64,000 bases of DNA from Phorcus lineatus (lineage: Eukaryota > Mollusca > Gastropoda > Trochida > Trochidae), in contig OV121081.1 of assembly GCA_921293015.1 (NCBI GenBank), positions 59,351,022-59,415,021 of the forward strand, read 5' to 3'. Below, piece by piece: positions 32,931 through 54,571 of this stretch (position 1 is the stretch's first letter; the number at the start of each line of letters is the position of its first letter). Below the pieces are notes generated by a model. It was not told the DNA's origin, searched no databases, and saw only the letters and a program-made list of their open reading frames with translations. Both the position numbers and the translations under genes were made by a program.

Positions 32931-32937
32931 GTACTGT

Positions 32938-32985
32938 CCCAGCAAACAATTTTACGTTGCGACAACGTTGTGAAAACGTCGTGGG
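32938..32985 (+). repeat. Left terminal inverted repeat of the large transposon
   Basis: It reads CCCAGCAAACA and then ACGTTGCGACAACGTTGTGA through to CGTCGTGG. It pairs with 54521-54565 after reverse complementation, with a 2-nt gap and a few substitutions. Confidence 0.8.
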
Positions 32986-32999
32986 AAGGTGTTAGTTAC

Positions 33000-34430
33000 G
33001 TAACATCTCAACGTAATTTTGACGTTATTTGTAGATTCCTTTTTACGTAATTTTTACGTCTTTATTCGACGTTACCAAACCAACGTCCAGGGAACGTGAG
33101 ATTAGAAAGTTATTTTTACGTTATTTGTAGATTCCTTTTTACGTAATTTTTACGTCTTTTATCGACGTTACCAACCAACGTCGACTCAACGTGAGTTTCG
33201 AAAGTTATTTGTAGATTACTTTTAACGTAATTGTAACATTACTTTTGTCAGTTCAAAATACAAGTAACTTTAGCGTAAGATTAAAACGTGACGTGAACAT
33301 AGGGTAACAAACATCACATTAACATTGTTTATCAACGTCCTCCTAATGTCTCAAATTGTTGTCCCGTAAACGTGCACTCTGACATCCATTCAACGTCTCA
33401 ATCTAATGTTCCCTAAATGTTTTAAATCGTCGTGCCCTGAATGTTCTAATCTGACATCATCCTAACGTCTCAAACTGACATCCCCTCAGCGTTGTAAACT
33501 GGCATTACATTAACATCTCAATTTTACATCCTCCTAACGTCTCAATGTGACATCCTCTTAACGTTTTAATCTGACGTCCCCTCAATGTTGTAAATTGCCA
33601 TGCACTCAACGTCTCAATTTTACATCCTCGTAACGTCTCAGTCTGACATCCCATCAACGTTTCAAGCTGATATCATTTTAACGTCACAATTTTTCATAAC
33701 CTAAACGTCTCAGTTTTACATCCTCCTAACGTCTCAGTCTGACATCCCATCAACGTCTCAAGCTGATATCATTTTAACGTCACAATTTTTCATAACCTAA
33801 ACGTCTCAATTTTACATCCTCGTAACGTCTCAGTCTGACATCCCATCAACGTTTCAAGCTGATATCATTTTAACGTCACAATTTTTCATAACCTAAACGT
33901 CTCAATTTTACATCCTCGTAACGTCTCAGTCTGACATCCCATCAACGTTTCAAGCTGATATCATTTTAACGTCACAATTTTTCATAACCTGAACGTCTCA
34001 ATTTTACATCCTCGTAACGTCTCAGTCTGACATCCCATCAACGTTTCAAGCTGATATCATTTTAACGTCACAATTTTTCATAACCTAAACGTCTCAATCT
34101 TACATTCTCGTAACGTCTCAATGTGACCCCAATATAACGTCTCAATATGATGTCCCCTGAATGTCGGAAATTAACATGTCCCGAACCTCTCAATCAGACA
34201 TCCTCGTAACGTTGCATCTGACATTACCTACATGTCTCAAACTGACGTCCCCTGAACATCATACACTGACTTCCCATGAACGTGTCAACCGAACGTCTCC
34301 TCAATGTCTTCAACTTATCGCCTACTTAATCTCATTATCTAATGTCCCCCTGACGTGGCAAAACGTCTCAAACTAACTACCCTTTAACGTCTCAAACTGA
34401 CGTTCCCTTGCGCCCTTTTATATTCTGAAA
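33000..34430 (+). repeat. Left subterminal array: 24-bp monomers in a 96-bp higher-order repeat
   Basis: The monomer is about ACGTCTCAATNTGACATCCC plus four bases. Four variant monomers make a 96-bp unit whose starts fall exactly at 33609, 33705, 33801, 33897, 33993 and 34089 (five full copies and a partial sixth). Single monomers flank this core. Nearer the terminus a more diverged 96-bp repeat starts at 33022 and 33118 (shared ACGTTATTTGTAGATT). The array fades at about 34400 and has no coding function. By analogy with CACTA elements it may be a binding platform for element-encoded proteins. Confidence 0.9.
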
Positions 34431-35055
34431 CTTACTAGGTGGGAAAGTGACAAACTGAACGATGTCCCGTGAATGGTGTAACGTAACATCCCAAGAAGGT
34501 GTAAACTGACGTCCTCTTTACATAGAGATTCAACGGTTTCTTTTTGATGTTTTAATGAAAATTCCCTAAACGTCGGAAAGTTTTTGTGTTCCTCAATTGT
34601 TTCACGGATGGTTGCAGATTTTAAAAATGAATTTTGTGATGTGTAGTTCACGTATGTTAAATACCTAATGTTCATTTGTGCAAGATGTATCCCATTTAAT
34701 AGCATTATTAATTTCGTTGATCTGATTTCTGATTTCAATGTGATACTATGAGTCAACGGTCTCTGTAATCGTAGCACTCGCCTAGACATTTTTCTTCAAA
34801 TGTTATTGCCTCTTAAAATTCCCACTTTATTATTTCCGAATAATGATTTTTCGATGATTTTAATGATTTAAATTATTTTAACAACGTTATCAGTCAGAAG
34901 TGGTCATTGAAATTCTACATAGGTTACTAAAAGGCAATTGACATATGAACAAAAGACTAGGGAAAAGATACTTGTAAAACTGAACTTCAACGCATGCAGA
35001 AAAAGAATTAAGAAAGGGAAAAGAGAAAGACATTTTCAATTGTTTTTATTTCATC

Positions 35056-35221
35056 TCAAAGTATATAGTCACAAAGGCAGTACATATGCCATCTTGCTTT
35101 CTTGCTGAAGCCCGACACGTAAAACCAGATTGGCAATTCCTGGAACCGTGTTCCCTCCACGATGCAGCAGCAAGGGACTGGAGGGTTTACAGTCAATACA
35201 CCATTTTGATGTTCAATATAC
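35056..35221 (-). CDS. Candidate 3'-terminal exon, unknown product
   Basis: On the minus strand a pyrimidine-rich acceptor (ATTTACATTTCAG) precedes an open frame of 54 codons ending in TGA at 35056. It encodes a Cys- and aromatic-rich peptide with IEHQNGVLTVNPPVPCCC and ELPIWFYVSGFSKKARW. Composition and acceptor look like real coding sequence, but the exon needs a donor with two leftover bases and I found no matching one. It could be the last exon of another transcript of the large transposon or of a captured gene. Function unknown. Confidence 0.35.
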
Positions 35222-35924
35222 CTGAAATGTAAATAGATTGATAAGTAATGATTTAAGTATTCAAACTTACTTAACAAATAAAAAACATCTTTTGCAAAAT
35301 ATTAAATCATTTACAAAGTGAATATAATAGTCCTACTTTGAAGTTATATCATTTCAAGTACTAATTCCGGAAAGCATAGAATATGACCTACGGTTATCTA
35401 TAAAATCTATTACCTTGAAAATATAACTAAATACTTAAATGTAATTATTACCGCGTACGAAATAAGCACCTACTTTTGAGAAACTGTATCAGACTGTCCA
35501 AGACTGTCGTCTAAAAATGGCTACCTTCCCTTGAGACCTAGAGACCATGTCTTCTGAAAGAAACTGAACCTTTTGTTAATGTTTGAAATATATTTACATG
35601 ATATTTACACACATTAAACCACCACCTGTGTTTAATTAAAACTGAATTCGCACAGTTTGATGATAAGATTTACAAATTAACACAATGTAGATGTAACAAG
35701 AATAACTACATCAAAGTAGCGGAAATGTTTCAGTTGCGCATACTTAAAAAAAAAGCTCGCGTCATATGTGAACACATTAATTTGGATGAAAAATACGTCT
35801 ACAACAAAGACTAGAACGTCTAATTTGAGCATCAAGGAATGTTTCGTTAAATGTTTAAATGGCATTCACTGGTTACTCGTTCGGATCTTATGCTCCCCAC
35901 GACCCCGTTCAATACTAAACTCAG

Positions 35925-36000
35925 AAATTAGACGTTCTATATTCATAATGTCCTGGTTTTAACCCCTGCAGTGACGGAAAACTAGCTGCCAGTTGCCCGC
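35925..36000 (-). repeat. Duplicate of the alternative last-exon region
   Basis: On the minus strand, GCGGGCAACTGGCAG, then CTGCAGGGGTTA, an AGGACATT and TATAGAACGTCTAA parallel GCGGACAACTGGCAA, CTTGCAGGGGTTA, AGGGCATT and TATAGAAAATCTAA at 36430-36530. This indicates a local duplication inside the element. Confidence 0.6.
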
Positions 36001-36474
36001 GATCTGTCTTTCCACAAAGGTTGCGTCGATCTGAATATGTATGAACTTGTCCCCATCAACCAAACAGAACTATCTGGGGGAAAAAATACGTTAATGTTTT
36101 CAGAATGATAACTGCTCTTAATGTTAAGTATATTACACGTCGTATCAATAAGTTAAATAGTTGAATTTGTACCGAGAAGCTACTAGATTATTTGCAAGAG
36201 GTTTGAGGTATCAGAGAAGATAATAAATCAATCGGTCAGTTTACACTGCACAACAAGTCATGTTAAGAACTTGAACAACTTCAAATTATTTCAATAATCT
36301 GATGTTTTCAGTATAGAACATCAAACATATGCATAAGGTTTTTTGTATTGAACTTGACAGTCAATGTCATTTCAGCGGAGTAATACCACTTTTAAATCAT
36401 CTTTCAACATAGATGGTAAAAATGCACATGTTAGATTTTCTATATCAAAATGCCCTGTCCATAACCCCTGCAAG

Positions 36475-36558
36475 TCATTCCGAATCGGAGCCACCCATGA
36501 TGAACTGTTGCCAGTTGTCCGCCATCGGGCTCTTGTTTTGGGATGTCTCTGACGGCGC
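36475..36558 (-). CDS. Possible alternative last exon of the DUF4806-like gene
   Basis: A TTTCAACACAG acceptor is followed by 27 in-frame codons and a TGA (APSETSQNKSPM, then ADNWQQFIMGGSDSE). If the upstream exon were spliced at AGA|GTGTGT (after GGPQYR), the frame stays open and the protein would be 354 aa instead of 338. The duplicated patch at 35925-36000 resembles this exon. Unproven; the AATAAA at 36679-36684 favours the shorter form for at least some transcripts. Confidence 0.4.
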   Translation of the reverse strand, partial: APSETSQNKSPMADNWQQFIMGGSDSE

Positions 36559-36678
36559 CTGTGTTGAAATAAACACACACATTATCATTATATTATTAAA
36601 GGAAAATGGTAAACTTACTTTTTTAAACTAGGCATAAATGTACCGAATATTCAACCATAAAGATAGAAGATGAATATT

Positions 36679-36684
36679 TTTATT
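36679..36684 (-). terminator. Candidate poly(A) signal
   Basis: AATAAA on the minus strand about 100 nt past the stop of the DUF4806-like gene, at a normal distance for a short 3' UTR. Confidence 0.45.
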
Positions 36685-36782
36685 GAAAACTGGAGAGATG
36701 ATTTAACGGATAAAAGCTAAATTATCTTCATGCGTTAAAGTAACATATAAATACTTTCAATGAAATGGAATTCTTGCTTTTA

Positions 36783-39700
36783 TCAAATATAAACAATAAA
36801 ATAACTGCAAGTACACACTCTATACTGGGGTCCTCCTTTGGCGTGCGGGGCATGTTTCAGTGTATCAATCAAACACTTTTCTATGTCATGGAGGCTTGCT
36901 TTGGGAAAGTTTTTCACTGCAGCCCCTTTAAAATAATTATTTGATATATGTTGAATATTAACATAAAAATGGTTAGAGTTTGAATAAAAAATATTACAAC
37001 TCCTGTACAAAAAAATAACGGTTATGCTTCTTTATCATAATAGACTTATTCAAAGGCAGTAGCGCATGCCAATATTTTGTAAAATTGAGAATGCCTAGAT
37101 AATGTAAATCTATATCCTTAACGATCCGCACTCAGGTCATCTATTAACTAGGTATTTAAGGCAACATAAGTAAAACAAGTTATAGAGTTAATTCTTAAAG
37201 CTACGTATGTATGTAACGTTGCATTACAGTCGCATGAACATATGATATTACTAGGAGTACTAATACTATAAAGTACTACTACTACCTAATCACATGCTCT
37301 CGGTAGTGAACATAAAGTTGTTATGCACATGAAATGTTCGAAAATATTTCATGACGAGATAGTTTTTGCTTGGCAATAAACAATGACAAATGGAGAGGCT
37401 TGAAGGTGATGATGGTAGTGATATCGGAAATATCCGAATTTTGCTCACAGCCAGAAAAAAGAGAGAACGGTACCAACTGTGGTTAATCAATTATCACTTT
37501 GCAAATATAAAATTTATTAAATTGATTACGTAACGATATCGTGATAATAAACAATATCTAATATTTGTTCTCAGTTCTCAGTTGAGGGTTAAAGGCAATC
37601 CAAAAGCTACTAACATTACATACTAGCTGACTATTGATTGCTTGTATATCACCAGAACGACGCTATCCGTCTTACCATGTTTATTGTTGATTGAAGGCAA
37701 ATTATACAGAATAATAAGAATTTCATTGCATCGATGAAAGCTGAGTGAGTTACTATGTCCATATATGCCTTAAAATAGCCAATCTTAACCGAAAAAGCGT
37801 GAATTTGTTGCTTATAATGGACAATTTGTTGGTATGAACATTTTCAAACTGAACAATACATACTGAGTATGACTCTGAAAATACTCAGGTCTTGAAAAGG
37901 TTTTTTGCCCTTTCTGCCCCGAAGGCTGTAATTGGCCCACAGCGCATTTGTTCCAATTTTGCGCAACATTTTCCTCATCATTTCAGCGAGGTTTGATCCC
38001 CCAAGGCATGTTAGGAATCGTAGCTGAAACGAAACGACATCATAATAGAAAAAGAGATGCAATCATGAGACAATGTTAATGATAATCACTAGCTAAACTT
38101 ATGAATACTGGACTCCGACCCCTACTTTCCCCGGAAATATAACCAATACGAAAAACACAAGCCTAAAAAATGTTCTAATCGCAAAGAATTTTATCAATAA
38201 TTTGCAGTTATAATGTTAACGACTATAAAATATGCAATAATAATGTCGTATGAATTTTTACTGAGAAATACTCGACGTGGCGTCAACCACTACAATGTTG
38301 TTATGAAGATCAGTTTATCGCTTGTGACACTCATTTACCAATTGCTTCCTACACTTCTTATTTTCAGTTATTTTAAGGCAAAGGTTTGTCATCCCCTCTG
38401 TGTCTTCAACAGGGGCATTGAGGACGTCATGAAGCAAATCTTCATCATCTTCATCGACACCCGATTGAAATGCGATACGTCTCAGCATGATCATGATCTC
38501 TCTCTGGTTTTCCAGAACCAATTCCAGCTTAGCGTTGTAGTCTAAAACAAACAATACTTTAAAGGTCATATGGCGTATACTTTGCCTTATCAGTCAACCC
38601 AATAAAATTGTTTATTGTGCAATAGTACTTATTCGTTGAAAGCGACGGCATTGAATAAGAATTTGTCCATGGCAATAAAACCGATAATGAGAAAAAAAAA
38701 CAATGCCTGTTATGGGTTTGTGACAAATTGATGAGGTGACCATTGGTCTTCATAAAGTTTAATTAGAAGATAGATCTCAGTTGGAAGGGTCTGATTTATA
38801 CCATTAAACCTCTTAATCTGTAATTACTTACCTTCCGAGCTCATTTGGTTCCTGGGATTACTACTTATTGGGCTTATTGGAATGGAATGGAATGTAGAGA
38901 CATCGACGTCGTCTGTCGGCGTCGATGTCGGCGTCGATGTCACTGTGGGTGGATTGTGTTTTACCGCCTTCGCCCCCTGTGGTCTCGCTCGCTTCTGATT
39001 CTCATCTATAATAATCAAGTGATTACTTTTCAATTATTTAGATTTATTACATCAGTTCACTAAAGATTTTAGACATTTATACACAAAATACAAATTTTTC
39101 GCTCATGTCACTGTAAATAAGTTTGTATTTGAATATTGATCACAAATTAAAACTTGTAAAATATAACGAATCAAAATAGAATTATTTGTAAGGGATAACA
39201 TTTCCTTAGCAATTTGAGATAGTATCCTTACCTTCAACACAATCTTCGTTCGCGTGTGTTGGATTTAGCCTCTTCCTCCGCGAGGGCATTGCCAGTTCTT
39301 CTTCATCCCCTTCCTCCAAGTTTGAGGTATCCTCGGCCCTCTTGGCAAGTTGTGATGCTCGTTGAAAATCATCTGTAGATCAATTAATATTTTATTCAAA
39401 ATCATTTAATGAGTCAACTTCACTCTTTCGCCAACATGTAATGTTTACATGAACGACTATGTTTAATAAAAGATATTTAACAGATACCCGTGTAAATCCA
39501 TTTGTTTTCAAATGAGTTCCAATATCTTATATTTACACTAAGCAGTTTGATAAGGCGCGTGTATGTAAGACATACTTTAATACTAAATATCCATATCATG
39601 AATAATTACACTCACCAACGTATTGAAAAACTCGTATTTCATATCTCTGCCACCGCCTCTTATCGGGATATTCACCCCTTTTCGCACGGATATGGGCCCC

Positions 39701-39972
39701 TGATTTGGGCCAATAGCAGAACTTTTGCTAAAATCAGAATGATATATCAACATGGTTCAGGAACTCATTTCTACAATCATTAGTTATCAACAACACATCA
39801 TTCTGTCCTCACTGACTGTTGTCATCCTCATATATTTATCATCTTTATTTAAATTTGTAATAAAACTACAAATAAAGACCATGCTTACCTCCCCTATGGA
39901 CTCAATCCAGGTACAATGCACAGTTTCTACAGTTTCCTCCCCAATAAACTCGACAACAGCGTACTGGGACAT
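36783..39972 (-). CDS. DUF4806-like protein, seven exons, 338 aa
   Basis: Exons, in transcript order: 39972-39889, 39727-39616, 39372-39232, 39005-38832, 38541-38339, 38023-37864, 36925-36783. Every junction is GT-AG, phases agree, and the sum is 1017 nt (338 codons plus TGA). Residues 1-90 form an N-terminal module (MSQYAVVEF, FCYWPKS, RWQRYEIRVF, RAEDTSNLEE) of the kind often found with DUF4806. Residues 91-170 are low-complexity with a basic patch (PSRRKRLNP) and Thr-Pro repeats. A helix follows (LELVLENQREIMIMLRR), then a DUF4806-like domain at about 205-325 with LTCLGGSN, RGRKGKKPFQDL and a final HDIEKCLIDTLKHAP helix. The exact role of DUF4806 is not known; here I infer an accessory DNA-binding protein of the transposon. 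The ATG directly follows an acceptor (CTCATTACAG), so an upstream leader exon is likely. Confidence 0.85.
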
Positions 39973-40138
39973 CTGTAATGAGTTGAATGCACCTTTATGT
40001 TATTGACCATAAATACAATCATTTATCTTCAGATAGAAGTGTAATTGATATAATTGGTATGATTGTTACTATTTGTGTACTTTATGAAATGCGATTAAAA
40101 GGAAACTTTCTAAATCGTAAAAATGGCTTACATGAAAT

Positions 40139-42052
40139 TCAATATTCATGAAGGATTGCCATGAATAAAGATGTGTCATCTCCTTCGACAACCAAGGCCT
40201 TCCTTTTCAACTCATTTTCTGGCAGAACTCTCATTCGACAACGTACTGCGGATACTTTAAAAACACCTATTATTCTCGAAGCAATTGGCCTATTGAACAA
40301 GTCATGTGGTTTACTGTAAACTCTGCAAAGACACTTTCCCTCATTATTCTTTCCTACTACTATGCAACCGTTTCCATTTTCCAATACGAAGGCATTGTTG
40401 GGTCTCTTGTAACTCTTGGCCCCTAACGCTGGAGCTTTGGAGCATAGACTTGCTTCCTGTTCTTTTAATCTCCTAACAATCTGAACTAGTGGACTCTTCC
40501 CAGATCGAACCAACCTCTTTACTTTTTGCAAGTAGCTCTCAAATGCAAAGGCACTGAAAGTATCAAGACTGCCGAAAGTCTCAGCATCTGAAGCTATGTG
40601 GGTCAACATGTGCACATTGTATACTAGGAACTCGTCTCCATACAATAGTTTTCCTTTTTTCACAAAGTGAATCAGAAGTTGATGTGCACGGCCTAAACTC
40701 TCTGAAGTCATCGTCTTGCCTACCAGTAAACAAACGGCACAACTCAATTTCATGAAATGATCATAAAGGTCTTGTCTCAAGATGCCCTTAAGAACTAATT
40801 TCCCTGTGTAGAGGAGGAACTGCCTATATTCCGTAGCTTTCCATCTATCAATTTCCCTCAAACTCCTAGGTTTACGAGCAAATACCTCTGGAATGATATT
40901 CCTCATTGACAAAAGTCTTTTGCCTATCTCATCTACGTGCCCTGCTGACATCCTAACGTCCCGTTTACCTCTTATCCAAAGAAGTAACAGTCTTTTCATT
41001 ACCCCTAGGCAGATTTGATGCATGTAATCTATTGGGAAGTCTTTAACCATGTCCATCTCCAATAAGCAAAAGGGTGAAACACCTCGATGATGCTCTGATT
41101 GCTCTTGACGCCTGAACGATGCATCAGTTCTAAAAATCAAATTGTCTACATCAGGATAGCATATTCTTCCAACCCAATGACCACGTTGCGTACATCTCTC
41201 GCACCCATAATACCCAGAATAAAGTTTGCAACACTTTACCATAGCACGAGCCGGTGCATCGCATATTATGCCCTTCAAGAGGACCTTTAATGTTCTATCT
41301 TCATACTGGAAACCATTGGTGAGAATGTCCTCTAACTCATCAATGGTGTCTGACAAAAACTCTAGATTGCTTGGTTTTCCGTTACACAATGTGAATGCTA
41401 CGGGAAATACAATCTTTGGCTCTATACAAATTGCGCACAGCACAGGCCATAAAGACTTTTGAGAACTCTTAAACAGAGGCAATCCATCTATGTTGAATGA
41501 TATTGGGACGTTGTCAATGTATTTACTAATGTCATTTGGATATTTGTTCAAGTTTTTCAGGAGTTCCGTTTTCAGGCCCAGAAAAAAATATTCATAATCT
41601 GTGGTTTTGACCGTTTTCACGTTTATGTCAGTGTTCAAAAGTGTTCGCGCAGTTACTGGAAGATCAGGGTAGCCTCTATTGCGTAATATTGCAAGTATTC
41701 CCTCTGTAGCATTGTGCTTTATCTGGTAAGTGTTAACCCACTTTACAAGATCACTTTCCAAGCAGCTAACATCAAGACCGATGTCTGTACTTTCATCCTC
41801 AGAATCGGATGATAGTATTCTATGATTGTCTATTTCATCCCAAACAGCCTGTGCTTCACTACTTGACCTAAGCTTCTCGGTACCAAAACTGGAAGGTTGA
41901 ACATCATCGCATCGATGAGTTGTTCGTAATTCAGAATCGCTATCAGAATTGCTATTGAGCAGGTCAGAACAGTTGCTACCGCCTCTATGTCTTTTAGCCG
42001 CAATCCATATTTTCCTGTAAATACGCGTTTTTTTCCCTCCTTGGTCGCTCAT
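40139..42052 (-). CDS. EnSpm/CACTA-like (Tnp2-type) transposase, intact 637-aa ORF
   Basis: The predicted nuclear enzyme would excise and insert the surrounding element. The single uninterrupted exon begins with an acidic/basic, Ser-rich region (1-100). A catalytic-type region follows: FNIDGLPLFKSS (Asp189), GIICDAPARA (Asp265), a CERC zinc knuckle (284-287) with GHW, FPIDYMHQICLGVMKRLL (339-356), VYNVHMLTHIASDAE (477-491) and FGSLDTFSAFAFESYLQKVK (493-512). These blocks and their order are characteristic of the Tnp2/Transposase_21-like proteins of animal EnSpm/CACTA and fungal Plavaka elements. I infer Asp189, Asp265 and a later Glu (possibly Glu504) as the DDE triad. A splice acceptor (TGTTGCAG) ends one base before the ATG. 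The frame is open throughout, suggesting recent activity or selection. The DUF4806-like gene starts 166 bp downstream on the same strand. Confidence 0.85.
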   Translation of the reverse strand: MSDQGGKKTRIYRKIWIAAKRHRGGSNCSDLLNSNSDSDSELRTTHRCDDVQPSSFGTEKLRSSSEAQAVWDEIDNHRILSSDSEDESTDIGLDVSCLESDLVKWVNTYQIKHNATEGILAILRNRGYPDLPVTARTLLNTDINVKTVKTTDYEYFFLGLKTELLKNLNKYPNDISKYIDNVPISFNIDGLPLFKSSQKSLWPVLCAICIEPKIVFPVAFTLCNGKPSNLEFLSDTIDELEDILTNGFQYEDRTLKVLLKGIICDAPARAMVKCCKLYSGYYGCERCTQRGHWVGRICYPDVDNLIFRTDASFRRQEQSEHHRGVSPFCLLEMDMVKDFPIDYMHQICLGVMKRLLLLWIRGKRDVRMSAGHVDEIGKRLLSMRNIIPEVFARKPRSLREIDRWKATEYRQFLLYTGKLVLKGILRQDLYDHFMKLSCAVCLLVGKTMTSESLGRAHQLLIHFVKKGKLLYGDEFLVYNVHMLTHIASDAETFGSLDTFSAFAFESYLQKVKRLVRSGKSPLVQIVRRLKEQEASLCSKAPALGAKSYKRPNNAFVLENGNGCIVVGKNNEGKCLCRVYSKPHDLFNRPIASRIIGVFKVSAVRCRMRVLPENELKRKALVVEGDDTSLFMAILHEY

Positions 42053-42209
42053 CCTGCAACATTACAGGTTAAAGTTTACTTAAACAATTAATATGAGCTT
42101 TTGATGATTATTAGAATTAATATAAATATGATAACCCACGGTCATTACGTATCAATGATAACTACCCACTATTTGAAAAAGCATGATTTGTCGAGATAAC
42201 AGTCTTGAG

Positions 42210-42580
42210 TACCGTATTCGACTTAATAACCGCCCACTCCCCTATAAGCGCCCACCCACCACGTTTTTGACTGAACAATATGAGTCCTGATTTAGCGCCC
42301 ACCCCTCAACATTGCGTACCTTGCATGCTGATTCATCGAAGAGATTTTTTCAGTCTTTCAATAAGTCTTTTATTTCCACTAAAGTGAAGAATATTCAATA
42401 TTTCAAGACCCCCAGCCACCATCAAAATGATAAAGGTTACAAAACCATATTTCAAAGACATGTGTATCGTAAGAAAACACTTTGAAGACTAAACTTGAGG
42501 ACAATTTTTATCGTTTTAACAAGCGCCCCCTTTTACCAATTTTTTAAGCGCCCCGGGCGCTTATCACGTCGAATACGGTA
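42210..42580. mobile_element. MITE with CCGTATTCGAC ends, TA target duplication
   Basis: The left end reads TACCGTATTCGACTTAATAA and then CCGCCC. The right end, reverse-complemented, reads TACCGTATTCGACGTGATAA and then GCGCCC. Flanking TA on both sides fits a Tc1/mariner- or pogo-type non-autonomous element of about 370 bp. It sits between the 637-aa transposase and the 189-aa ORF, so it inserted into the large transposon. A related left end occurs at 46549. Confidence 0.8.
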
Positions 42581-42752: not shown

Positions 42753-43322
42753 TTATAAAGATTCAGAAATGTGGGAAATAGAAGGAAATGTTTGTGGAGA
42801 AGTGGGGATAACGGATGACTGTGTGAAAAAAGAACTCACACACCTACATGGCACAATGCATTTTCTTTCAACACCTTTGCTTTCTCCAGAACTACTGCTA
42901 AGTCCAATGTACTCCCATTCGAAATGCTGTGCGGGATGGTCGAACATAGATTCGTTGCAAATGGGGCATTTGTAATTGTTCACGGGGGTTAATGGAAGGG
43001 GAATTGTGTTTTTATCAATAGCATGTGGGGATAACGATGGATCGGATAATACATGATGACTAAAACTCCTATTCATTGAAACATGGGGGACTGGGTTGGG
43101 AGTTTCCACTGAATAAAACGGTCGTCTCAAATCAGGCTCCGATTGAACTCTGGCGAGACTCATCGGGAACGATACCGAGGGCAATTTAGGAAACACACAT
43201 CTGTCATAATGTGTCAGATCAAAGAAGGAGAATGGGTCTGTGAAAACGTGGGTATCCAAATGATTAAAACTGTTTCCACTACTTGCAGTTTCTGCTACAA
43301 AAATCCTATTTAAATTTGACAT
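42753..43322 (-). CDS. Unknown 189-aa protein with CPxC motif
   Basis: Single open frame from ATG to TAA on the same strand as, and upstream of, the transposase. Residues 1-110 are Ser/Pro/Phe-rich and look unstructured. Around 115-140 there is YKCPICNESMFDHPAQHFEW, a CPxC pair followed by two spaced His that could form half of a zinc finger. The rest is Ser-rich with a CIVPCRC cluster. An in-frame TGA lies just upstream of the ATG. An acceptor (TTGCTTTGCAG, exon starting at 43375) implies a 5' UTR exon boundary 53 nt before the ATG. I do not recognise the family. Position and strand suggest a third protein of the large transposon; a chance ORF is possible but unlikely at this length. Confidence 0.6.
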   Translation of the reverse strand: MSNLNRIFVAETASSGNSFNHLDTHVFTDPFSFFDLTHYDRCVFPKLPSVSFPMSLARVQSEPDLRRPFYSVETPNPVPHVSMNRSFSHHVLSDPSLSPHAIDKNTIPLPLTPVNNYKCPICNESMFDHPAQHFEWEYIGLSSSSGESKGVERKCIVPCRCVSSFFTQSSVIPTSPQTFPSISHISESL

Positions 43323-43375
43323 GTTATACTTATATCAATATTTGTCCTCTGATATCTTCTTCACGTCACTCTGGT

Positions 43376-45777
43376 CTGCAAAGCAATATATGAACAATAT
43401 CAAAAGGCGCCATGCAAGCTGAGGGTATTTTAACCTGTAGTGGTGATTTTTATTGTAATCTGAAGACATGATACATCCAAAATTGGCTTAAAGTCATTGT
43501 CTTATTTTTGCAAGGCAAATTGTAATGCATGTCGGACAAATAGTTCACCACCCACAGAAATCTTTCCCCTGACGTTTGCAACAATTTTCAGAACTCAACA
43601 GGCATTCTAGCCCTCAATAATTAAGTTCAAACTACCCTACCCTAATATTACGTGTTTTGCGAGCGTTAGTCCTAACCACGTCATTTCGCTAAGGCCGTGA
43701 CGAAGAACACACAAAATTTCCCAGCTGAATATCCAATTCAAATAGCTAAAAGCTTACCCTTTTTCAAAAACTGAAATAACATAAAGGTGGTAAACTCAAT
43801 GAAGAATGCGTCTGTCATAAGTATCGGCGCTACAGTTACTAGATTTCGGTGTTTCGCACTCGCGATGGGATTACACTTGATTCGGTACGTCATCGATCTG
43901 AAACGGCTTTAATTACGCCAATAAGCTGCTTCATCCAAAACTGTAAAACGGGCATAAAATTGAAAATCTTTGCAAATACGACAAGAAATATTCATGTTAG
44001 TGATCAGATTTTGTTCGTGAAGAATATTTAGTTCAGTTTAGTTGCCTTACAAAAATGAGACTATGACTTTAAAGTTTATGCATAACTTGTGAGATGTAAG
44101 TATCAATATATCAATCAAATAATCAAATTGGTTCCATGATGCTTTTAATAAAACATATTATACATCTCGGTCAGCTTGACGTCAGAAAGTTGATGTCATC
44201 GCCATTCCTTTTTTATAACGATCCTGTATCCCACTGTCTCCACCTTATGCTATTTAAATACTCGGCAAAGTCCCCATATTTATGTTCTAAAAGATGTGAT
44301 GCTGAATTATTCGAAATAAAAAAACGGTTATTTAATTCCCTTTATTAAGTAAACTTGAAAAAATGACCGCGTAAAAAAGGTGATTTATGAATACATCACT
44401 CTGCAAATAACCAAAGTCGTTATCATACGAGCATGAATAGTCGACTAAATAATCGAGGAAATTCTATACAGCATTACCATTCATGACTCATTTTATAGCA
44501 TTGCATTTATAAATTCCAAATGAAGCACCCATAAAATAACATTCCAACTTTGTTAAACTTAACATATTTTGTACGGGCGGATTGAAGTTAATACGATATA
44601 TGCGTATGGGGCAGTTGCATAAGGAATTACAGTTCCTGAAATTTATGAGATAAATGAATAACTTCGGAGTTTTTCAAATGATTTGATGAGTAAATCTGTT
44701 TTTAAACAAACACTAAAAAATGTTATATATTCATTCAGGTTGGAACAAGACATTGAAATATACAAGATATATTATAGACTTTTAAAAGATAGATTTGTTA
44801 ACACTAAGAGTTTAAAACCGATTTATATTTAGAAAATAAATACATCAAGATAATATGAATTGCTCTTGAGCATCAGCAAAGTTTACAGCAAAAAGTTTAC
44901 TTAAATTTTATAATGAAAGCAAAGGCATGTTTATGACAGGCAAAAAAATGTTGCTGTCATCTATCGTTTAGTCAGATCTTGATTCCAGATACATTTGCCA
45001 CAAAGCATGTTAGCATCTTGTTCTCTAGACACACCCCGTCTGTCAATCAAATTTCGCGCGTGCGTACGAAGGAGCCAATTAGTGTTGCGTTAGTCCAAAT
45101 GTATTTCGGGGGACCTACATGTAGCGGCGATGGGCGTTTGAAAATGTTACCGAAAGTTTCTTTACGTGGATGTCATTGCATAAGTGTTTCCAATTATTGA
45201 AGGATTACCATTAGGAAAACGCATGGATAAACAAAAATTCTAAAAAACCGCTCGCGATTCTAAGGAATGCGATAAGGTGAGAATTTGCATGAATCATGCC
45301 TTTTGAATTGTTCTCTTCAACATGGCATTGTACATATTAGCATAGTTTTAAAAAAACCAGCTCAACAGCGGCGTTGAAAGAATTTATATATTCTAAACGC
45401 CGAATCTTGTAGGAATGACAAGCATGCATACATTAGCTATTCTATAGAGTTTTAGTGCTGTATTTCATATGACATAAAAAGTTAGGAAATTTTTATGAAT
45501 GTTTATCGATGTACTGTGAACAGTCGCCGGGTCTTTACCCTCATTGAAATGAATAATTGCCTGCTTTGAAGAATTGCTGGGAATGAGTAATAAAATGTAA
45601 CCAAACTTGCATGTGCCTCTTTTTAAAACAATTCCGGCATATTAGAAATACATTTCGGCAATTAAACTCATGGCGAGAACTAGTATATATCGTTATCCAA
45701 TATCAATTAAAAGTTTATATTAATGTTTCTGTTTAGATTTGACATTTAGATAAACATCTTGCTTCGGAAATAAATAC
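43376..45777. other. Interior non-coding stretch upstream of the transposon genes
   Basis: No ORF with recognisable features. A patch at about 45030-45185 is visibly richer in CpG (GCGCGTGCGTACG) than its surroundings. As the region upstream of three minus-strand genes, it is a plausible place for their promoter and leader exon, but I cannot locate a start site. Confidence 0.35.
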
Positions 45778-46005
45778 TTTAAGAGCCACTCCGTGAGTTG
45801 TTAGGGTCATATATGCCAAACTTAATCAATGGTGTCATTTGATCATGAAGTATCGACTGTTACACTTACCAAAAAGACACATTTTAAAGCTCATTGCTTT
45901 TTACAGTGACAATATGAAGGTAGAGCATCGCAAATATGATCGAAAACCGGACAGTGGCGCGCGTCAAATAGTCAAATGTAATTTTGGAGACTTATCTAAA
46001 ACAGC
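45778..46005 (+). repeat. Dispersed repeat family, copy 2
   Basis: Colinear with 2482-2706 through ATATGCCAAACT, AGTGACAAT, GAAAACCGGACAGTG, CGCGTCAA and TAATTTTGGA. It may extend further right than copy 1 does. Confidence 0.6.
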
Positions 46006-46548
46006 CAGGAGGGCAGTTAGGAGTTGATAGTGTTTAGTAGGTTATAAAACTAGTATCCAGGTATATCGGACGTGATATCTAAAATCAACAGTCCCAAAAC
46101 CCAATTGCACTTTTGGCAAAAATTGCAAAACGTATCACAATACGGCATCAAATATCGCAATATATCGTTTTTTTCTGGCAATACCAAGGCAAACCCTAAT
46201 ATCTACACCTCTGTTCATTTATAAGGATGTTTTTATATTTTCCTGGGAAACCCAGTATTTCTCATATATGTCTTTTGGACATGAAAAGTTAAGATATTTT
46301 GATTTCATATCACCATATGACATTTATGTTCGTATCAAATGTAAATAATATGTTACGAAAATCACGGAGGGGCTCTTTAATGAATGATTCCTTATAAGTG
46401 CAGGGGCGATTTTTCTAAAATATATGCAGTTATGAAGTTAAGCTATCATTTCTGAATTGCTGAAAATATATGGAAAGTATAACCATTTTCACTAATAAAC
46501 AGTTGAGCAGTCAAGAGCGTACACATTCACCGTTTTTACTTGACGATA

Positions 46549-46635
46549 TACCGTAATTCCTTTAATAAACGCCTCGTGTTCATAAATTTCAAATTCCATT
46601 TTGACAAGGTGGTTATTCACCACAGGTGATAATTG
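46549..46635 (+). mobile_element. Left end of a second MITE, cut by the assembly gap
   Basis: TACCGTAATTCCTTTAATAA followed by ACGCC resembles the end type of the MITE at 42210 (TACCGTATTCGAC, TAATAACCGCC). It runs into unknown bases after 87 bp, so its right end is not visible. Confidence 0.5.
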
Positions 46636-46835
46636 NNNNNNNNNNNNNNNNNNNNNNNNNNNNNNNNNNNNNNNNNNNNNNNNNNNNNNNNNNNNNNNNN
46701 NNNNNNNNNNNNNNNNNNNNNNNNNNNNNNNNNNNNNNNNNNNNNNNNNNNNNNNNNNNNNNNNNNNNNNNNNNNNNNNNNNNNNNNNNNNNNNNNNNNN
46801 NNNNNNNNNNNNNNNNNNNNNNNNNNNNNNNNNNN
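46636..46835. other. Assembly gap (200 N)
   Basis: Two hundred unknown bases; the round length suggests a placeholder rather than a measured gap. Reading frames crossing it are meaningless. Confidence 0.99.
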
Positions 46836-48805
46836 GAATAAAGAACAATGAATAAGGCAGATTATTAGTTTTGAAGAATATAAACCAGTTTTGTTCACAT
46901 TCTGGACCTTTTTTTGGTGGTCATTTGTTATGTTTTATGATAATGTTTCAGCCCATCCTTCAAAACCTAAAGAAGGATGGTTTATAACTGTCTATTTTAA
47001 AATGACTCTCCCAAAACTTTCGTATATCTTTCTGACCCTCCCCTGAAAACACACCCCACCCCCTATATTATAACCGGTCCCTAAACGTTGCATCCATATT
47101 CATCTTTGGCATGTTCAAACATCCAATACTTTTTGCATGTAGGAGTTTGATGTGTGCAGTTAGTGAATAAACTTAATTATTAGATAGGTATTTGAAATGT
47201 GGAATTTATAAATGAAGTAAATTTATCAGAAAAAGCGTTTTCTTCTGGCATTTGTAAAAAAAAAAACCCACAAAAATGCGAAACGTAGCTTTATCTCTAC
47301 TTCAAAATCATTACGATAAAAAATGAAACTTCTTTTTAAGAGCCATCAAATATTTGTTAAGATACTGACTTATTATTTTAAATCATATATGTTTCAGTCA
47401 CCATCCCATTATGGTACCGACAATATATGTATCACCCCAACTAGGGATTCCGAAATTGGAATCCTAAGTTATGAGATAAATCAAATAGATCTTAAAGTTC
47501 ATAAATACTACTGATATATCGCCGATGAAATGCTTCACTTCTCATTCTTGTCTTATTTTACCTGGTTTAAACTGTGTTATGTTATAATCATGCTCTTATG
47601 AAATACATGTAGATATTGGAATTTCCCCTTGAATTTTGTTTCCACAAAAAGCTACCCTGATAGGACTGTCCTTAAAATTCAACAATTTCTTCACGTATTC
47701 GTTTTTTTGTACCAAACATGTTATGAATAATATGACAACGACTGTTCAGTACCGTTTGTGTTGTTTTCCCTTCCTCTCTGTAACCATATTATGGATGCAC
47801 ACCTATCTACTTCTATCAAAACATTCGGTAAAATAAATTCGTCATAACGTTTCGTCAAGGAATATGTTAGTCCTGTGTAGGTTTTACGCATCTCGTCATC
47901 GGCTCGTTGAATTAAAACTAAGGCGAGACTGATGTATCACTATATGTCGCTATTGACAGAAAGTTATAACATACACAGGGCTTTAGATAATTATTTGGAT
48001 TCAGGGGTAATTCACTCTTCAAAATGAGAGTAATTGAGGTTTTATCGTTTTCAGTTCATCATTCCAAGTTAGCATCTCTTTCTATGCTAGTCGTTGATTA
48101 TATTTTCCACACGTTTAATCTTTTAATGAACGAGAGGTTTCTCTTTGATGAAATACATAACTTGGTAATCTTTGTTTTCACACAGGTTGGCATCAAGTTG
48201 GCTACTATTCGAAATGTAAAGATCACACATGTACAAATGAAACTTTATTTTGACACTTTATTTTGATCACTCATGTAATCAAATATCTTACTCGTATGCT
48301 GGGAAAGTTATGCGTATCTGTCACTCATTGATTTCATTTTTAATGCGTATATCTGAATTACATGTGCGTATTATACGCAGATACGCATCTTATCTGGAGC
48401 CCTGAAATACATTGACAATAATTAACATGTTTATAATCCTTACAACATACACTCTGTCATTTTAATAGGATGGGAAATATTTAATTAACATGATTTAGTC
48501 TCTTAATAGAAATCACTCGTCACGACGTGCATGTCCAGACGCAACTACAGGAGGTTGCCATTGACTTATACATCGTGGTTAAGAAATTAGATTATTTTAT
48601 TTAAAAAAATGGTTAAGTAGTAAATAATGACCGGGTGACTAACGATTATGGCATAACGCGAGGCTAAATATTTGATTCAGAAGATATAAATTGACATAAC
48701 TTTACACCTATATATTTCCATGTATATATACATATACATTTATATATATACCAGGGGGAAAACAGTACAGACATGACACAACAAAATGAACAGTTACAGG
48801 CAGGG

Positions 48806-48879
48806 ATCCTCGTTAGCTCAAATGGTAAAGGCGTTACTCGTCAGGAAGGATGTCCCGGGTTCGAATCCCACTTTCGCTA
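48806..48879 (+). repeat. tRNA-like sequence (pseudo-tRNA or SINE head)
   Basis: A-box-like TTAGCTCAAATGG and a perfect B box GGGTTCGAATCCC (48857-48869) lie at tRNA spacing. The acceptor stem does not pair (the 3' side TTTCGCT has no partner) and only three T-stem pairs form. It therefore looks like a tRNA pseudogene or the head of a SINE rather than a working tRNA. Confidence 0.55.
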
Positions 48880-49992
48880 ATGTCAAGTCTTATATACTTA
48901 ATTTGTAAAACTTTACAAGTCTAATCGTTTGTGTAGGTTGAACATCTCTTAACACCCACCTGCGCAGTTGGTGGTTAATGCATATAGCCTTCAACTAAAA
49001 ACAAAGGACCGATTTGAATGATATGTGATAGTGCCCTAGGGCGATATGGAGAAACAATCGATGATTACGTCATAAGAGGTTGATATGACAATGACCCGAT
49101 GTTAAAAGAATGGGAACATATCACACCTAGGTGTGTAAGATGAAATATATAATTTGTACTTCACGAGGCAAACTATTTTACTTCGTCTTCCTTTGACGGC
49201 AGCTTTAGTCATACTATGACTGCAAAAGTAAGATAGATATATTCATGAGCTTTCTAAAAGAAACCTAATTATTACGTATTGCTGATGAATTATATAAAAA
49301 TGATAATAATTGGGATCTTTACGTCTATATATGATGTACTATATGTAATTAGAAGTTCAAATTCGCTTGACAGTATTAAAATTAAATCTATCCGTCACAT
49401 CTCAACTCGTTCGATACATTTAGATACATGTCGACATTATTATAATAGTAATGATTAGTTCTGAAAAAATATGATAAGAGCAAAATGTAGCCTTTTGATT
49501 GAACTCATATTCACATTCAATAATTAGAAGCCAATTACATAACGAGTAATTATTAAACGAAGCCAACATAGCAGTAAGCTTTCAGAGCATCTATTTAACA
49601 ATTCCATGTTTTTGCCAGGTTGAGTATCGTCTCATTCATTGTCTCAGTCGCTGGGCCTGTTTGAAGATCGCCCTCGAAGATTAAATTTAATTGTTATTCA
49701 CATATACGAGCTGATGATAATGCTTGGACAGATATCAGCCAAGCAATGTTTTATTGACAATCGAACCAATCTACACATTTGTGAACTCAGAAACATTTTC
49801 AAAATCAAGTATCATTTTAAAGACGCGCTCCTTCGAAAGGTTTGTAGTTTTTGTATTGTATGTTCAAGTTTTATGTGGATTAATGCTGTAACGCGCTGTT
49901 CGAAACGAAGCCACAAAGTAAACGCTCCGACTATGCTTGGGAGCACCTTCGCTACAATAGCAAAATTCCTATACTTTCCGGGTTGAGTTCCT

Positions 49993-50074
49993 TGCGGGAT
50001 TCAAACCCTCAGAGTCAGGCAACGCCACCAGCGTTGACCGTATACCGGCAGCTGACAAACTAGTCTATCTCGCC
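49993..50074 (-). repeat. tRNA-derived SINE-like head
   Basis: On the minus strand it begins GGCGAGATAGACTAGTTTGT and ends in a B-box-like GGGTTTGAATCCC. Relatives lie at 16350-16410 and, weakly, 15909-15982. The arms are imperfect, consistent with a SINE. Confidence 0.55.
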
Positions 50075-50889
50075 TTGACGAAAATCAAGGTACAAAAAGT
50101 GTTTATTCAGCTGTTTTTACATTCAATATCCCCCCTGAAAGATGTAAAACGGCAAAGTAGGCCTACAAATATATGTCTTATTTGCAAATACAACAATATT
50201 TTAACCCAAACGATTAATCTCTGAGAATATACAATTTCTTTCATTAATGACATTGTGTCATCAGAAATGTCGCAAAAACTGTATTTATGCATGTGGATGG
50301 ATAATACCGCATTCAAGTTGTAAGTATCTGTTAAAGATGATTTGTTTGACAATGGCGATAAACTTTTTATAGCACTGCTTAGTAGTTCTACTAATTAACG
50401 TATTTGTCATTTTGTTATATTTTAGAATAGAGTAACCCATTGTTATGAAATATCTCAAAGGCCAAAAGTTCATTTCCCTTTATATCTGTTCGAATTTTTT
50501 CACATAATTCAGTTCTGTTATTCCATTCAAAATTAATGTCAAAATCTCTTATGACCATTCTGTAATTAGATGAATTTGTCCAATCCAAATGCAATTCCTT
50601 TCAATAATGCACGATATCCTTATTTTTATTTAACCTGTCCCTATCAGTCTAAGTTGTTTTTTGCGTTAACTTGAAACGTGAAAATAAAAATAATCTCTGT
50701 AACAATAATTTTAGGGAATGAACAATTTGCTCATTTTGGTTGTTACTATTTAACATAGATTTCCCAGATTAACAATTCCCGAATGCTAAGGCTACTATTT
50801 GTATTGTAATTCTGATGAAGCTTTTGTCATTTTTTTTGCCACAATATCTTTTATCTTAATTCATTTATGCTCATACACGTGTATACTCA

Positions 50890-51735
50890 AACAACTTGAA
50901 TTGTAATATCTTATCAATGTATCTTGATATTAGTTGGTTATCGCACAAGCAATTTGGCAGCTTTAGGCGAATGTGGACGCCATCCATTGTTTATCAATCA
51001 AAGCTTAGGGTAGTAGGTTGCTGGTTAAAGAAAGTCAGCATGAATTATAATAGATATGTAGAGCAATGTTTGTTTCTTATGAAACAACATGATGGCATAG
51101 GTTACAAAATTTGGGCAACAGCTTTTAGAATGTTTTTATTTTCTTGAGGCTTAGGATTTGTATGGATTAGTAATGTAGTTGGACATAGTAAATCATTTAT
51201 GTTATGCAACGTTTATTTGACATGTATAAACAATGCTCGAGTCAATATTCAAGCTAAAATTGAAATATATTTTACTTGTATAAATCTGTACAGCTGAGAA
51301 ATTTACAAACTTTAGATGTTGCTCAAATAATTTTGAAGTTGACAAATACAAACATGTCCAGAATCCTAACCCTGCTGATTTTATATGTCCGTATTGCGGA
51401 GAGAGCGAAGAAGATTAATATCATGTTATGTATTTATGTCCATATTTTGCAAAAATTCGTGAATATTGTTTACCGATTTATTCTAAAAAAAATTTCATTG
51501 GCTCTTACGATTACAAGTGTAGGTTATTACCAATTTATCATCGCATTTACTCAACTTTTTATTTCCCTGTTATCAACAACCCACAGTAATCTGTTGCTCT
51601 GCTTTGCCACCTACTTACATAATATAAAGTATTTAGATGAAGATAGCGCTCTGGTATTATCTTACATACAATGGAATACTGTATTTCTACTCTAAGCCTC
51701 CTGGCCCCGAAATGCAATAAACTTCTGTTCTGTTC
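50890..51735 (+). mobile_element. 5'-truncated non-LTR retrotransposon (LINE), 3' end
   Basis: Only the C-terminal end of the ORF2-type protein remains, in several frames. An early frame reads SIVYQSKLRVVGCWLKKVS, YVEQCLFLMKQHD and, after a stop, GLGFVWISNVVGHSKSF. A later frame has DFICPYCGESEED, YHVMYLCPYFAKIREYCLPI, the CCHC-type knuckle typical of LINE C-termini. The element ends in AATAAACTTCTGTTCTGTTC, a short repeated 3' tail typical of non-LTR elements. The reverse transcriptase core is absent, so this is a dead 5'-truncated insertion within the large transposon. Confidence 0.75.
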
Positions 51736-52910
51736 TGTATCTTCATATATAACTATAATGTAAATGTGTTTTCTTCTTTTCACGAGAAGATTTGATGTTT
51801 CCTTGCAATGAGGTCAATCAAAGGGGCGATAAGTTGGATATTTTAATGCGCTTCACCGGTTATATAGCCTACTTAAATATATTCTAGGACGTATGTTAGG
51901 GTAATAAATTATCATAAAACACTTTCACATTAAAGTTAGAATGCTTTTTTGATTAACTTTTTTAATGCAGACTATAAAGTTATCAGATTTTTAAAAGGTG
52001 GTTTTACCAAATGAATTGTTGATGGGTCAATTGTATTTTTGTCATGGGAGGTCCTATAAAGAGGTTTTAGATATGATTACATCAGTAAGTAATATACTTT
52101 GATAAAAATTCGGCATTAACTGTCCCGATTTGGATTATATAATGGGATCCTTATTTGTTTGGTTTTTTGGTTTTTCGCTGTTTTATCTTATTACAGGTTC
52201 TGTATGAAGAAAACAAGTTTTACATATGACCTCCTTTAACTAGCAAAATGTGCAAAATGAATCCCTGCAAAACATGAAATCTTTGATTTTTGCTCAAGTA
52301 ACACTAATACTAAGGTACACGTTTTACCCGTACTCGTCCACATTGAGACGTCAGTAAATCTGTCTATATGTCGGACATTTGGGCATTACTTACATCGACC
52401 AGTTCGTGTGTTCCCCGTCTAATACAGTTGGTAACAAGTGTATATTTGATATGTAAAATTGCACGTTAAATTCGTATTCACCACATTTTCAGCCAGTCCA
52501 AACACGTCGTAAGACAGATCATAGTCGTTGTGAATTAAACCTATGTCCTATGTAAAATGCACACCCATTTCTATCATTAAGGCGACGAAGAATGGGTGTT
52601 GCAATTTCGAACATCACTACAAATGAATTCATCAAATATGTAAATCTTGAATTTTCATAATTATTTAGGTGAGCGGAAGTACTGATATTATTATCATGCC
52701 TTTATACTTAACAATGGGTTGTAGTGAAAAAAGACAATGTGAATCCTGATGAAGGGGCAAGAATTAGCCTAGAAACGCTGTGAGGAATATTTTGAAAAAT
52801 GTTCATACATAAAATTGTTTTATATTAATAGGTTTATTCAGTAAAAAACTTTTAATATCCTCTTATTGCGAACAATATCCCTCCGATGTTGCTTATTTCA
52901 CTGCAAGCTT
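51736..52910. other. Interior non-coding stretch
   Basis: No ORF of note. At 52746-52776 a CTGATGA ... GAAAC string resembles hammerhead-ribozyme core elements, but the required stems could not be drawn. Confidence 0.4.
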
Positions 52911-52914
52911 ATTA

Positions 52915-54500
52915 CAACGTTAGCTTAGTTACATGGTATTACTCTTTGCGCTCGGCTTTTCTTGGGTAAGAATGTGGTCAGAGGCTTTAACCTGACCAAT
53001 TCACAATTTTCCTCGCGCGTTAGATTTGTTTGAACATTATAATTAAATGCTTAAATACAATGTTGTTGGAAGGTTGAACTTTAAACTTACTAATTCACAA
53101 CGTCCTAGTAATATTTGCTTTGTACTCTGCATAGACGTTTGGTTTTGGCGTTTTAATACAACGTTGAATGAATGTTGGTCTTAAACGTAACCAAATCACA
53201 ACGTCTTTGTAAATAAAATTTCAACGTCGCATAGACGTTAGATTTCGACGTTTAAATACAACATTCAATGAATGTTGGTCTATAACCTAACCGATTCACA
53301 ATGTCTCTGTAACATGTATTTTCAACGTTGCATAGACGTTTGATTTCGACGTTTGAATACAACGATTTTTAAATGTTAGTCTTAAACCTTACCAATTAAC
53401 AACGTCTTTGTAACATGTATTTTCAACGTTGCATAGACGTTTGATTTCGACGTTTAAATACAACATTCAATGAATGTTGGTCTATAACCTAACCAATTAA
53501 CAACATCTTTGTAACATGTATTTTCAACGTTGCATAGACGTTTGATATTGACGTTTAAATACAACATTCAATGAATGTTGGTCTGTAACCTAACCAATTC
53601 ACAACGTCTTTGTAACATGTATTTTCAATGTTGCATAGACGTTTGATATTGACGTTTAAATACAACATTCAATGAATGTTGGTCTATAACCTAACCAATT
53701 CACAACGTCTTTGTAACATGTATTTTCAACGTTGCATAGACGTTTGATATTGACGTTTAAATACAACATTCAATGAATGTTGGTCTATAACCTAACCAAT
53801 TCACAACGTCATTGTAACATGTATTTTCAATGTTGCATAGACGTTTAAAATTGACGTTTAAATACAACATTCAATGAATGTTGGTCTGTAACCTAACCAA
53901 TTCACAACGTCTTTGTAACATGTATTTTCAATGTTGCATAGACGTTTGATATTGACGTTTAAATACAACATTCAATGAACGTTGGTCTGTAACCTAACCA
54001 ATTCACAACGTCTTTGTAACATGTATTTTCAATGTTGCATAGACGTTTGATATTGACGTTTAAATACAACATTCAATGAACGTTGGTCTGTAACCTAACC
54101 AATTCACAACGTCTTTGTAACATGTATTTTCAACGTTGCAAAGACGTTTGATATTGACGTTTAAATACAACATTCAATGAATGTTGGTCTGTAACCTAAC
54201 CAATTCACAACGTCTTTGTAACATGTATTTTCAACGTTGCAAAGACGTTTGATTTTGACGTTTAAATACAACGTTTTTTTGATGTGGGTTTTTAACCTAA
54301 CCAATTCACAATGTTTAGTTGACGTTTTGTTTCAACGTTGCAAAGACGTTAATCTTCAACATTTGAAAACAACGTACAATAAACGTCGTGGAAACATTGC
54401 TTTTTAACTTGACTAATTCACAACGTTCTATTAATGTTATCATATAACGTTGGATGAATGTTAAAGAGACACGTTGTCTTTCCTACGTTGTAGTTACGTA
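52915..54500 (+). repeat. Right subterminal array: 101-bp tandem repeat
   Basis: The unit is about 101 bp and includes GCATAGACGTTTGAT, a GACGTTTAAATACAACATTC segment, GAATGTTGGTCTGTAACC and CACAACGTCTTTGTAAC. Copies start (at the ACGTTTGAT point) at 53135, 53235, 53336, 53437, 53538, 53639, 53740, 53841, 53942, 54043, 54144 and 54245, so twelve units with almost perfect spacing. Diverged relatives extend on both sides toward 52915 and the terminus. Like the left array it is dominated by ACGT and AACGTT, but unit length and sequence differ. Confidence 0.92.
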
Positions 54501-54520
54501 AAAAAAAAACCATTACCAAA

Positions 54521-54565
54521 CCACAACGTTGTCACAACGTTGGCCAACGTTGTCTGTTTGCTGGG
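54521..54565 (-). repeat. Right terminal inverted repeat of the large transposon
   Basis: Its reverse complement reads CCCAGCAAACAGACAACGTT and then GGCCAACGTTGTGACAACGT, TGTGG. It pairs with 32938-32985. Confidence 0.8.
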
Positions 54566-54571
54566 GTAGTA

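Follow-up and report, generated by a model that had tools for sequence, protein, structure and literature searches.

A probable giant cut-and-paste transposon of CACTA-Mirage-Chapaev type, with large non-autonomous partners, in the genome of Phorcus lineatus

The window analysed here is a stretch of 64,000 base pairs (bp) from the gastropod Phorcus lineatus (assembly GCA_921293015.1, contig OV121081.1, positions 59,351,022 to 59,415,021 of the forward strand; contig C1 below). It contains a large DNA transposon spanning 32938-54565. The sequence CCCAGCAAACA opens the element on the left (32938..32948, plus strand) and TGTTTGCTGGG closes it on the right (54555..54565, minus strand). In the window, CCCAGCAAACA has a single occurrence, at 32938, as does its reverse complement, at 54555: the terminal inverted repeats of one and the same element start with the former and end with the latter, as placed by end alignment, genome matches and duplication analysis. 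The two end regions (flanking bases included) align locally with a score of 52, compared to a maximum of 37 in 500 shuffles, bearing out the inverted ends described in an earlier reading of the letters of this DNA (the sequence-only reading). That reading set the termini at 32935 and 54568 and took GTAC as the target duplication. GTAC is indeed present at both flanks, but siblings that are identical across the end diverge from CCC outward; the termini are therefore 32938 and 54565, GTAC is coincidental and was rejected, and the real duplication is the 2-bp sequence GT found on both sides (32936..32937 and 54566..54567).

Further copies were sought in the window's own assembly (957.8 megabases, 74 contigs) using the left 100 bp and the right 112 bp of the element as queries, for which match counts are lower bounds. 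The left end has at least 34 matches and the right end at least 27. Left and right ends are paired in inverted orientation at 23 loci (window included), 19.8-46.9 kilobases (kb) apart, and six of these loci span 23.5-23.9 kb. The termini are CCC..GGG in all 23 pairs, with CCCAGCAAACA at the left of each. Among the listed matches, 11 of the 34 left ends and 4 of the 27 right ends have no partner.

Target-site duplications were analysed for 28 of the 34 left ends (the six omitted are all unpaired) and for all 27 right ends; the left end on contig C16, whose terminus is not intact, was dropped. Exact 2-bp duplications are present at 18 of the 23 pairs, compared to 4.1 expected from mismatched pairs, and two further pairs show 3-bp flank matches. 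The duplicated sequences are TA (seven copies), AA (four), TT (two) and GT, AT, TG, AG and AC (one each), GT being that of the window copy. Right up to the termini, flanking sequence varies among the 23 pairs. The copy on contig C29 lies inside a tandem repeat, and a neighbouring unit of this repeat is an empty site for the element: it spans the junction ungapped over 78 bp with 5 mismatches, and the junction alignment scores 131 when 2 bp are dropped, versus 126 for 1 bp and 124 for 3 bp. On insertion, 2 bp of target are duplicated, TA and AA being the commonest. The 23 inverted pairings and the 18 exact duplications strongly support the earlier proposal of one DNA transposon with EnSpm-like coding capacity between its two ends. 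The outcome that the sequence-only reading named as fatal to its proposal, each end standing alone with its array or no other locus pairing them, is thereby contradicted.

Two other arrangements of ends were observed. At C11:4548159-4646778, two left ends in the same orientation lie 52 kb apart, the outer one beside a run of N, with one right end; this suggests local tandem duplication, recombination or misassembly. The left end beside the N run (C11b) would suit the right end of the other copy at this locus (C11a), a post hoc pairing that was not counted. At C25:10771718-10811777, a right end is flanked by TT, which agrees better with the outer of two left ends (C25x, TT) than with the nearer one; this pairing, also post hoc and not counted, would result in a 40-kb element enclosing a further left end.

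The window copy is interrupted by an assembly gap of 200 N at 46636..46835. Identity to C11a is 100% across the 13,698 bp preceding the gap and 99.94% across the 7,731 bp following it, and C11a has 25,004 bp without N between these gap-flanking matches (14199-39202 of the C11a stretch). The same holds for a copy on contig C39, which has an additional 0.5 kb or so. The lengths of C11a and C39 are 46,433 and 46,927 bp, respectively. Apart from 1-bp gaps and a shift in array register, these two siblings have 3 mismatches in 46,336 aligned bases, and the only other sizeable difference between them is one additional 494-bp tandem unit in C39 (element position 18308-18801). Their flanks are unrelated to each other. 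Because siblings that are near-identical on both sides of the gap hold 25.0 kb in its place, the window copy is most likely also about 46 kb in length, with 21.4 kb of it visible around the gap. The size of 21.6 kb given by the sequence-only reading was rejected on the same evidence, the siblings being about 46.4 kb, and is probably an assembly-gap artefact.

The transposase gene occupies 40139..42052 on the minus strand, with its frame at 40142-42052, and was recognized by its open frame, motifs and genome matches. It comprises 637 uninterrupted codons from the ATG, within a 640-amino-acid (aa) open frame at 40142-42061. The frame is open at four places in the genome: in the window, C11a and C39, where the copies are full-length and identical, and in C11b (C11:4555363), where it is about 10 codons shorter and the right part of the copy is untraced. 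A decayed copy is found at C16:22027634-22029223. The genome search returned 56 matches (from 69 of 78 candidates scored), the remainder of which are 25–51% identical over the aligned parts. Long open frames 35–40% identical to the transposase (e.g. at C25:3463854, C15:27428834, C7:2107465 and C29:30976877) probably represent other families of the same superfamily. By coordinate comparison, none of the 56 matches falls inside the other 20 paired loci, and tblastn detected no transposase in three of these taken whole (C7, C5_40M and C11_12M). Most members of the family appear to be without a transposase of their own.

Downstream of the transposase gene and on the same strand is a multi-exon gene (36783..39972) assembled by splice-site prediction. 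Exons 1-3 are predicted at 39972-39889, 39727-39616 and 39372 to about 39237, and exons 4-7 at about 39024-38832, 38541-38339, 38023-37864 and 36925-36783. The join of exons 3 and 4 was made by eye (the script gave no option) and two joins are second-best options, so that the exact protein is provisional. The spliced product of 345 aa matches the Pfam domain DUF4806 (PF16064; E 3.7e-7, 30.8 bits, above the cut-off of 25), which is listed in a domain table that also holds expanded transposase domains in Hydra (part of PMC7642931). A 193-aa stop-to-stop frame at 42756-43334 (first ATG: 42756..43322), again on the minus strand, contains a CX2C-X6-HX3H motif (CPICNESMFDHPAQH). When the 7-kb gene region was shuffled 30 times, frames reached at most 184 aa. 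Pfam gave no match for the 193-aa frame, which is a weak candidate for a third coding unit. Where at least three coding units had been proposed from the sequence, two (the transposase and DUF4806 genes) are thus firm.

A long subterminal array follows each terminus, at 32954..34440 on the left (plus strand) and 53000..54552 on the right (minus strand), both inner edges being approximate. The left array consists of 24-bp monomers in 96-bp units (tandem row at 33512-34224, four monomers per unit), and the right array of 101-bp units (tandem row at 53092-54350). ACGT occurs 57 times in 32935-34400 (38.9/kb) and 58 times in 53000-54568 (37.0/kb), compared to 2.8/kb in the interior and 3.2-3.7/kb outside the element, the arrays being about 13 times as dense as the interior. 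When ACGT, ATGT and ACAT are all taken as cores, spacings of 11, 13 and 24 bp occur 34, 27 and 54 times in the left array and 50, 47 and 50 times in the right, with 0.8-2.1 expected per spacing; spacings of 40 and 53 bp are present in the right array and not in the left. The ratio of observed to expected CpG is 1.64 and 1.62 in the arrays, 0.78 in the genes and 0.84 in the part hidden by the gap.

Because ACGT cores and 11/13/24-bp spacings are common to both arrays, a single pattern underlies the 24-bp monomer of the left array and the 101-bp unit of the right, each a different build of it. In the 23.5-kb class, alignment of the left array with that of the 46-kb element is limited to the first few hundred bp, but the spacings are retained (three copies). 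The view of two unrelated arrays was accordingly rejected: the long arrays described by the sequence-only reading are there, but they do not differ in kind. Part of the spacing regularity comes from tandem duplication itself. The agreement of two differently built arrays with a third in the 23.5-kb class points to a putative binding-site code behind the spaced cores.

The 23.5-kb class has 0.15–0.23% mismatches in two aligned pairs (C7/C5_40M and C5_40M/C11_12M), and therefore also moved recently. In the three copies compared, it shares only ends, arrays and short repeats with the 46-kb element. Common descent of the two interiors via a shared 0.5-kb stretch was considered and rejected, as this stretch is a dispersed repeat, found also near window 2481-2742 at 72–77% and beside another end. 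The interior of the class contains a remnant of a reverse-transcriptase zinc domain (zf-RVT, E 4.5e-9). The recent mobility of the 46-kb unit follows from two near-identical copies at different sites. Both the 46-kb and 23.5-kb units have spread recently, and transposase sources are few.

The bulk of the element looks non-coding. In the 25 kb hidden by the gap (read from the siblings), the longest frame is 133 aa, compared to a mean of 116 and a maximum of 145 for the longest frame after shuffling, and five frames reach 100 aa, with 3.0 expected. Pfam scans gave matches to 11 families at E up to 0.05 among 86 frames of the visible element and to 12 unrelated families (best E 0.0012) among 98 frames of at least 52 aa in the hidden part, each family being matched by one frame. 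About 4-5 chance matches are expected per scan at that threshold; the two scans covered unspliced frames of at least 38 and 52 aa. No polymerase, capsid or coherent viral gene set was detected in these visible and hidden frames, and weak matches with viral or phage names (e.g. CoV_S1, 0.002; Phage_holin_4_2, 0.012) are taken as chance, as are the other weak matches in the hidden 25 kb.

Several repeats lie within the element. A small inverted-repeat sequence resembling a miniature inverted-repeat transposable element (42210..42580; 26-bp arms, 88% complementary) separates the transposase and 193-aa frames, and a nested dispersed repeat at 45778..46380 is also found in the 23.5-kb class and elsewhere. 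Plus-strand frames at 51284..51586 resemble, in translation, the C-terminal zinc-binding part of reverse transcriptase and may be a retroelement remnant; in Pfam, the first has weak zinc-ribbon matches only and the second none. For a 2-kb sample of the hidden 25 kb, C39 and C11a gave the only full-length matches among the 40 of 2267 candidates that were scored; the sample includes a dispersed repeat of approximately 590 bp, itself nested, that is found at many places, and beyond these it yielded no source locus. Growth by nested insertions, proposed in the sequence-only reading, is thus supported by the dispersed repeats inside the element, but most of the extra DNA is without a source as judged from this one sample.

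Three features of the window lie outside the element. Two overlapping plus-strand frames at 12195-13720 belong to a separate transposase, apparently frame-shifted; the second matches DDE_1 (PF03184, E 1.8e-9) and the first has no Pfam match. A tandem array of 31 copies of a palindromic 21-22-bp unit (TTATCTCCTAATTAGGAGATA) occupies 29153-29824, and a similar sequence is present in the left flank of the element copy on C29. A perfect CT repeat of 171 bp is found at 11088-11258. Rfam (gathering threshold) and tRNA scans of the window returned nothing.

We read the element as a giant cut-and-paste transposon of CMC (CACTA-Mirage-Chapaev) type, about 46.4 kb in its siblings, with large non-autonomous partners, and assign this reading a probability of roughly 0.8. 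In the transposase, residues D189, D265, C284-C287, H345, H481-H485 and E505 (picked by eye) form the series D, D, C(2)C, H, H(3)H, E, with the putative catalytic residues among them. The order is that of the CMCT clade, for which PMC12730594 gives the motifs D, D, C(2)C, H(3-4)H and E in order, target-site duplications of 2-5 bp and termini that are 5'-CA..TG-3' "in most cases". The 2-bp duplication observed here is inside this range. Because the termini begin CCCAGCAAACA and not CAC, as they do in all 23 pairs, the element is not filed under CACTA/EnSpm proper; placement in the wider CMC group is likely but not proven.

Several points weigh against this reading. The DUF4218 match of the transposase (E 0.0098, 16.2 bits) is below the cut-off of 27, Pfam gave no match to Transposase_21 at E up to 1, and no solved structure matched. 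A structure model made without an alignment was useless (predicted local distance difference test score of 35) and was not used. The CMC assignment rests on the motifs together with the sub-cut-off DUF4218 match, and the CCC termini are unlike the CA of most CMCT lineages, which is not an absolute bar. A matching duplication is absent at 3 of the 23 pairs (C11a, C1_9M and C25_10M). The window copy is not visible whole, and its gap could hide less than 25 kb. Array data come from the window, C11a, C39 and three of the other 20 paired copies.

The element might instead represent a cut-and-paste lineage outside CMC, i.e. a new superfamily marked by CCC...GGG ends and a 2-bp duplication. Termini other than CA...TG and Pfam support below cut-off would fit such a lineage, as would the finding of transposase relatives only at other loci of the same genome. 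In viral and genome contig collections, 7 and 8 stretches fitted a pattern for transposase relatives, with none confirmed; the pattern CCCAGCAAACANNNNNACGTTG fitted 11 stretches in viral contigs. We nevertheless consider a separate superfamily unlikely, as every CMCT motif element is present in order and the duplication length is compatible with that clade. With respect to size, the window copy would truly be about 21.6 kb if it were an internally deleted derivative of the 46-kb element, the gap hiding little. It is assembled at this length with 200 N, and paired family members do range widely (from 19.8 kb), but such a deletion would need to coincide exactly with the gap, up to which the copy is 100% and 99.94% identical to a sibling with 25.0 kb between; a deleted copy is thus quite improbable. 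Long near-perfect repeats are known to break assemblies.

Two further explanations concern the copies and the ends. Were the near-identical copies segmental duplications or assembly artefacts, and not transpositions, the two left ends on C11 and the missing duplication of C11a would be accounted for; the unrelated flanks of the window, C11a and C39 right up to their termini, the exact 2-bp duplications of the window and C39 and the empty site of C29 make this very improbable. The last alternative, that the two ends are separate elements, each with its own array and a nearby second end, could draw on the differing repeat units (96 versus 101 bp) and on the ends without partners in the match lists. 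It is already refuted for practical purposes by the pairing of the same two ends at 23 loci, 18 with exact duplications, and the arrays share core and spacing.

In the mechanism that we propose for the giant CMC-type element, its DDE transposase would make cuts staggered by 2 bp at the CCC/GGG ends. An accessory protein encoded by the element (from the DUF4806 gene and/or the 193-aa zinc-motif frame) would coat the ACGT-core arrays at both ends in a TnpA-like role and, once bound, may help to unite ends that are tens of kb apart. This role is modelled on maize En/Spm, whose subterminal repeats are the binding sites of TNPA and whose proteins can be supplied in trans; TnpA-like proteins of plant CACTA elements likewise bind subterminal repeats and can work in trans (part of PMC2613891). 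The few coding copies would also move, in trans, those paired copies (about 20-39 kb) in which no transposase match lies.

Cut-and-paste transposons are usually a few kb in length, and their non-autonomous derivatives are usually smaller than the masters. Of the enlarged CACTA elements, Candystripe1 is reportedly about 23 kb. Tam1 is 17 kb and the soybean element Tgmt* 20.5 kb (PMC2613891). No 46-kb CMC element was found in the open literature searched; one elsewhere, Repbase included, is possible. As described in part of PMC2613891, plant CACTA/EnSpm elements such as Tgmt* resemble the present element in having terminal inverted repeats, asymmetric subterminal repeats, a transposase with a presumed DNA-binding protein, and non-autonomous copies that can be moved in trans. 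The Phorcus element differs from them in its CCC termini, its 2-bp and not 3-bp duplication, its length (more than twice as long) and its second gene of DUF4806 type. Its examined non-autonomous copies are large, share only ends, arrays and dispersed repeats, and are not deletion derivatives.

Among the fungal CMCT lineages in PMC12730594, Plavaka and ESTA share 2-bp duplications with the element (ESTA TA; PlavakaA 2 bp) and the D, D, C(2)C, H(3-4)H, E motifs, a likeness at the level of motifs. The Plavaka termini given there (TGT..ACA; CATCA..TGATG) are unlike CCC..GGG, and TET/JBP genes, present in part of the families in that source, were not seen in the element. In the red alga Chondrus crispus, En/Spm elements are likewise enlarged (16-20 kb, 4-5 frames; as cited in PMC6431247). 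There the extra size comes with extra frames, whereas the hidden 25 kb of the 46-kb element has little frame excess over shuffled sequence. Mavericks/Polintons, Teratorn (180 kb) and Starships are likewise larger than 20 kb and mobile at the DNA level; unlike these, the element has no credible viral or cargo gene among the frames scanned.

It is possible, and we suggest it tentatively, that the family represents an undescribed CMC-related lineage moving very large, mostly non-coding units (46 kb with transposase, approximately 20-39 kb without), defined by CCC..GGG ends, a 2-bp duplication and an 11/13/24-bp ACGT-core spacing code. Its long arrays may enable the joining of ends tens of kb apart, and a more numerous set of giant non-autonomous elements, with little in common except their ends, may depend on the few copies that have a transposase. 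Where a scaffold gap falls inside such an element, its apparent length can drop to half. With near-identical 46-kb units at different sites and about 20 large copies without a transposase match, it becomes possible to test directly how large a unit DDE cut-and-paste transposition can move and what part long subterminal arrays play in bringing distant ends together.

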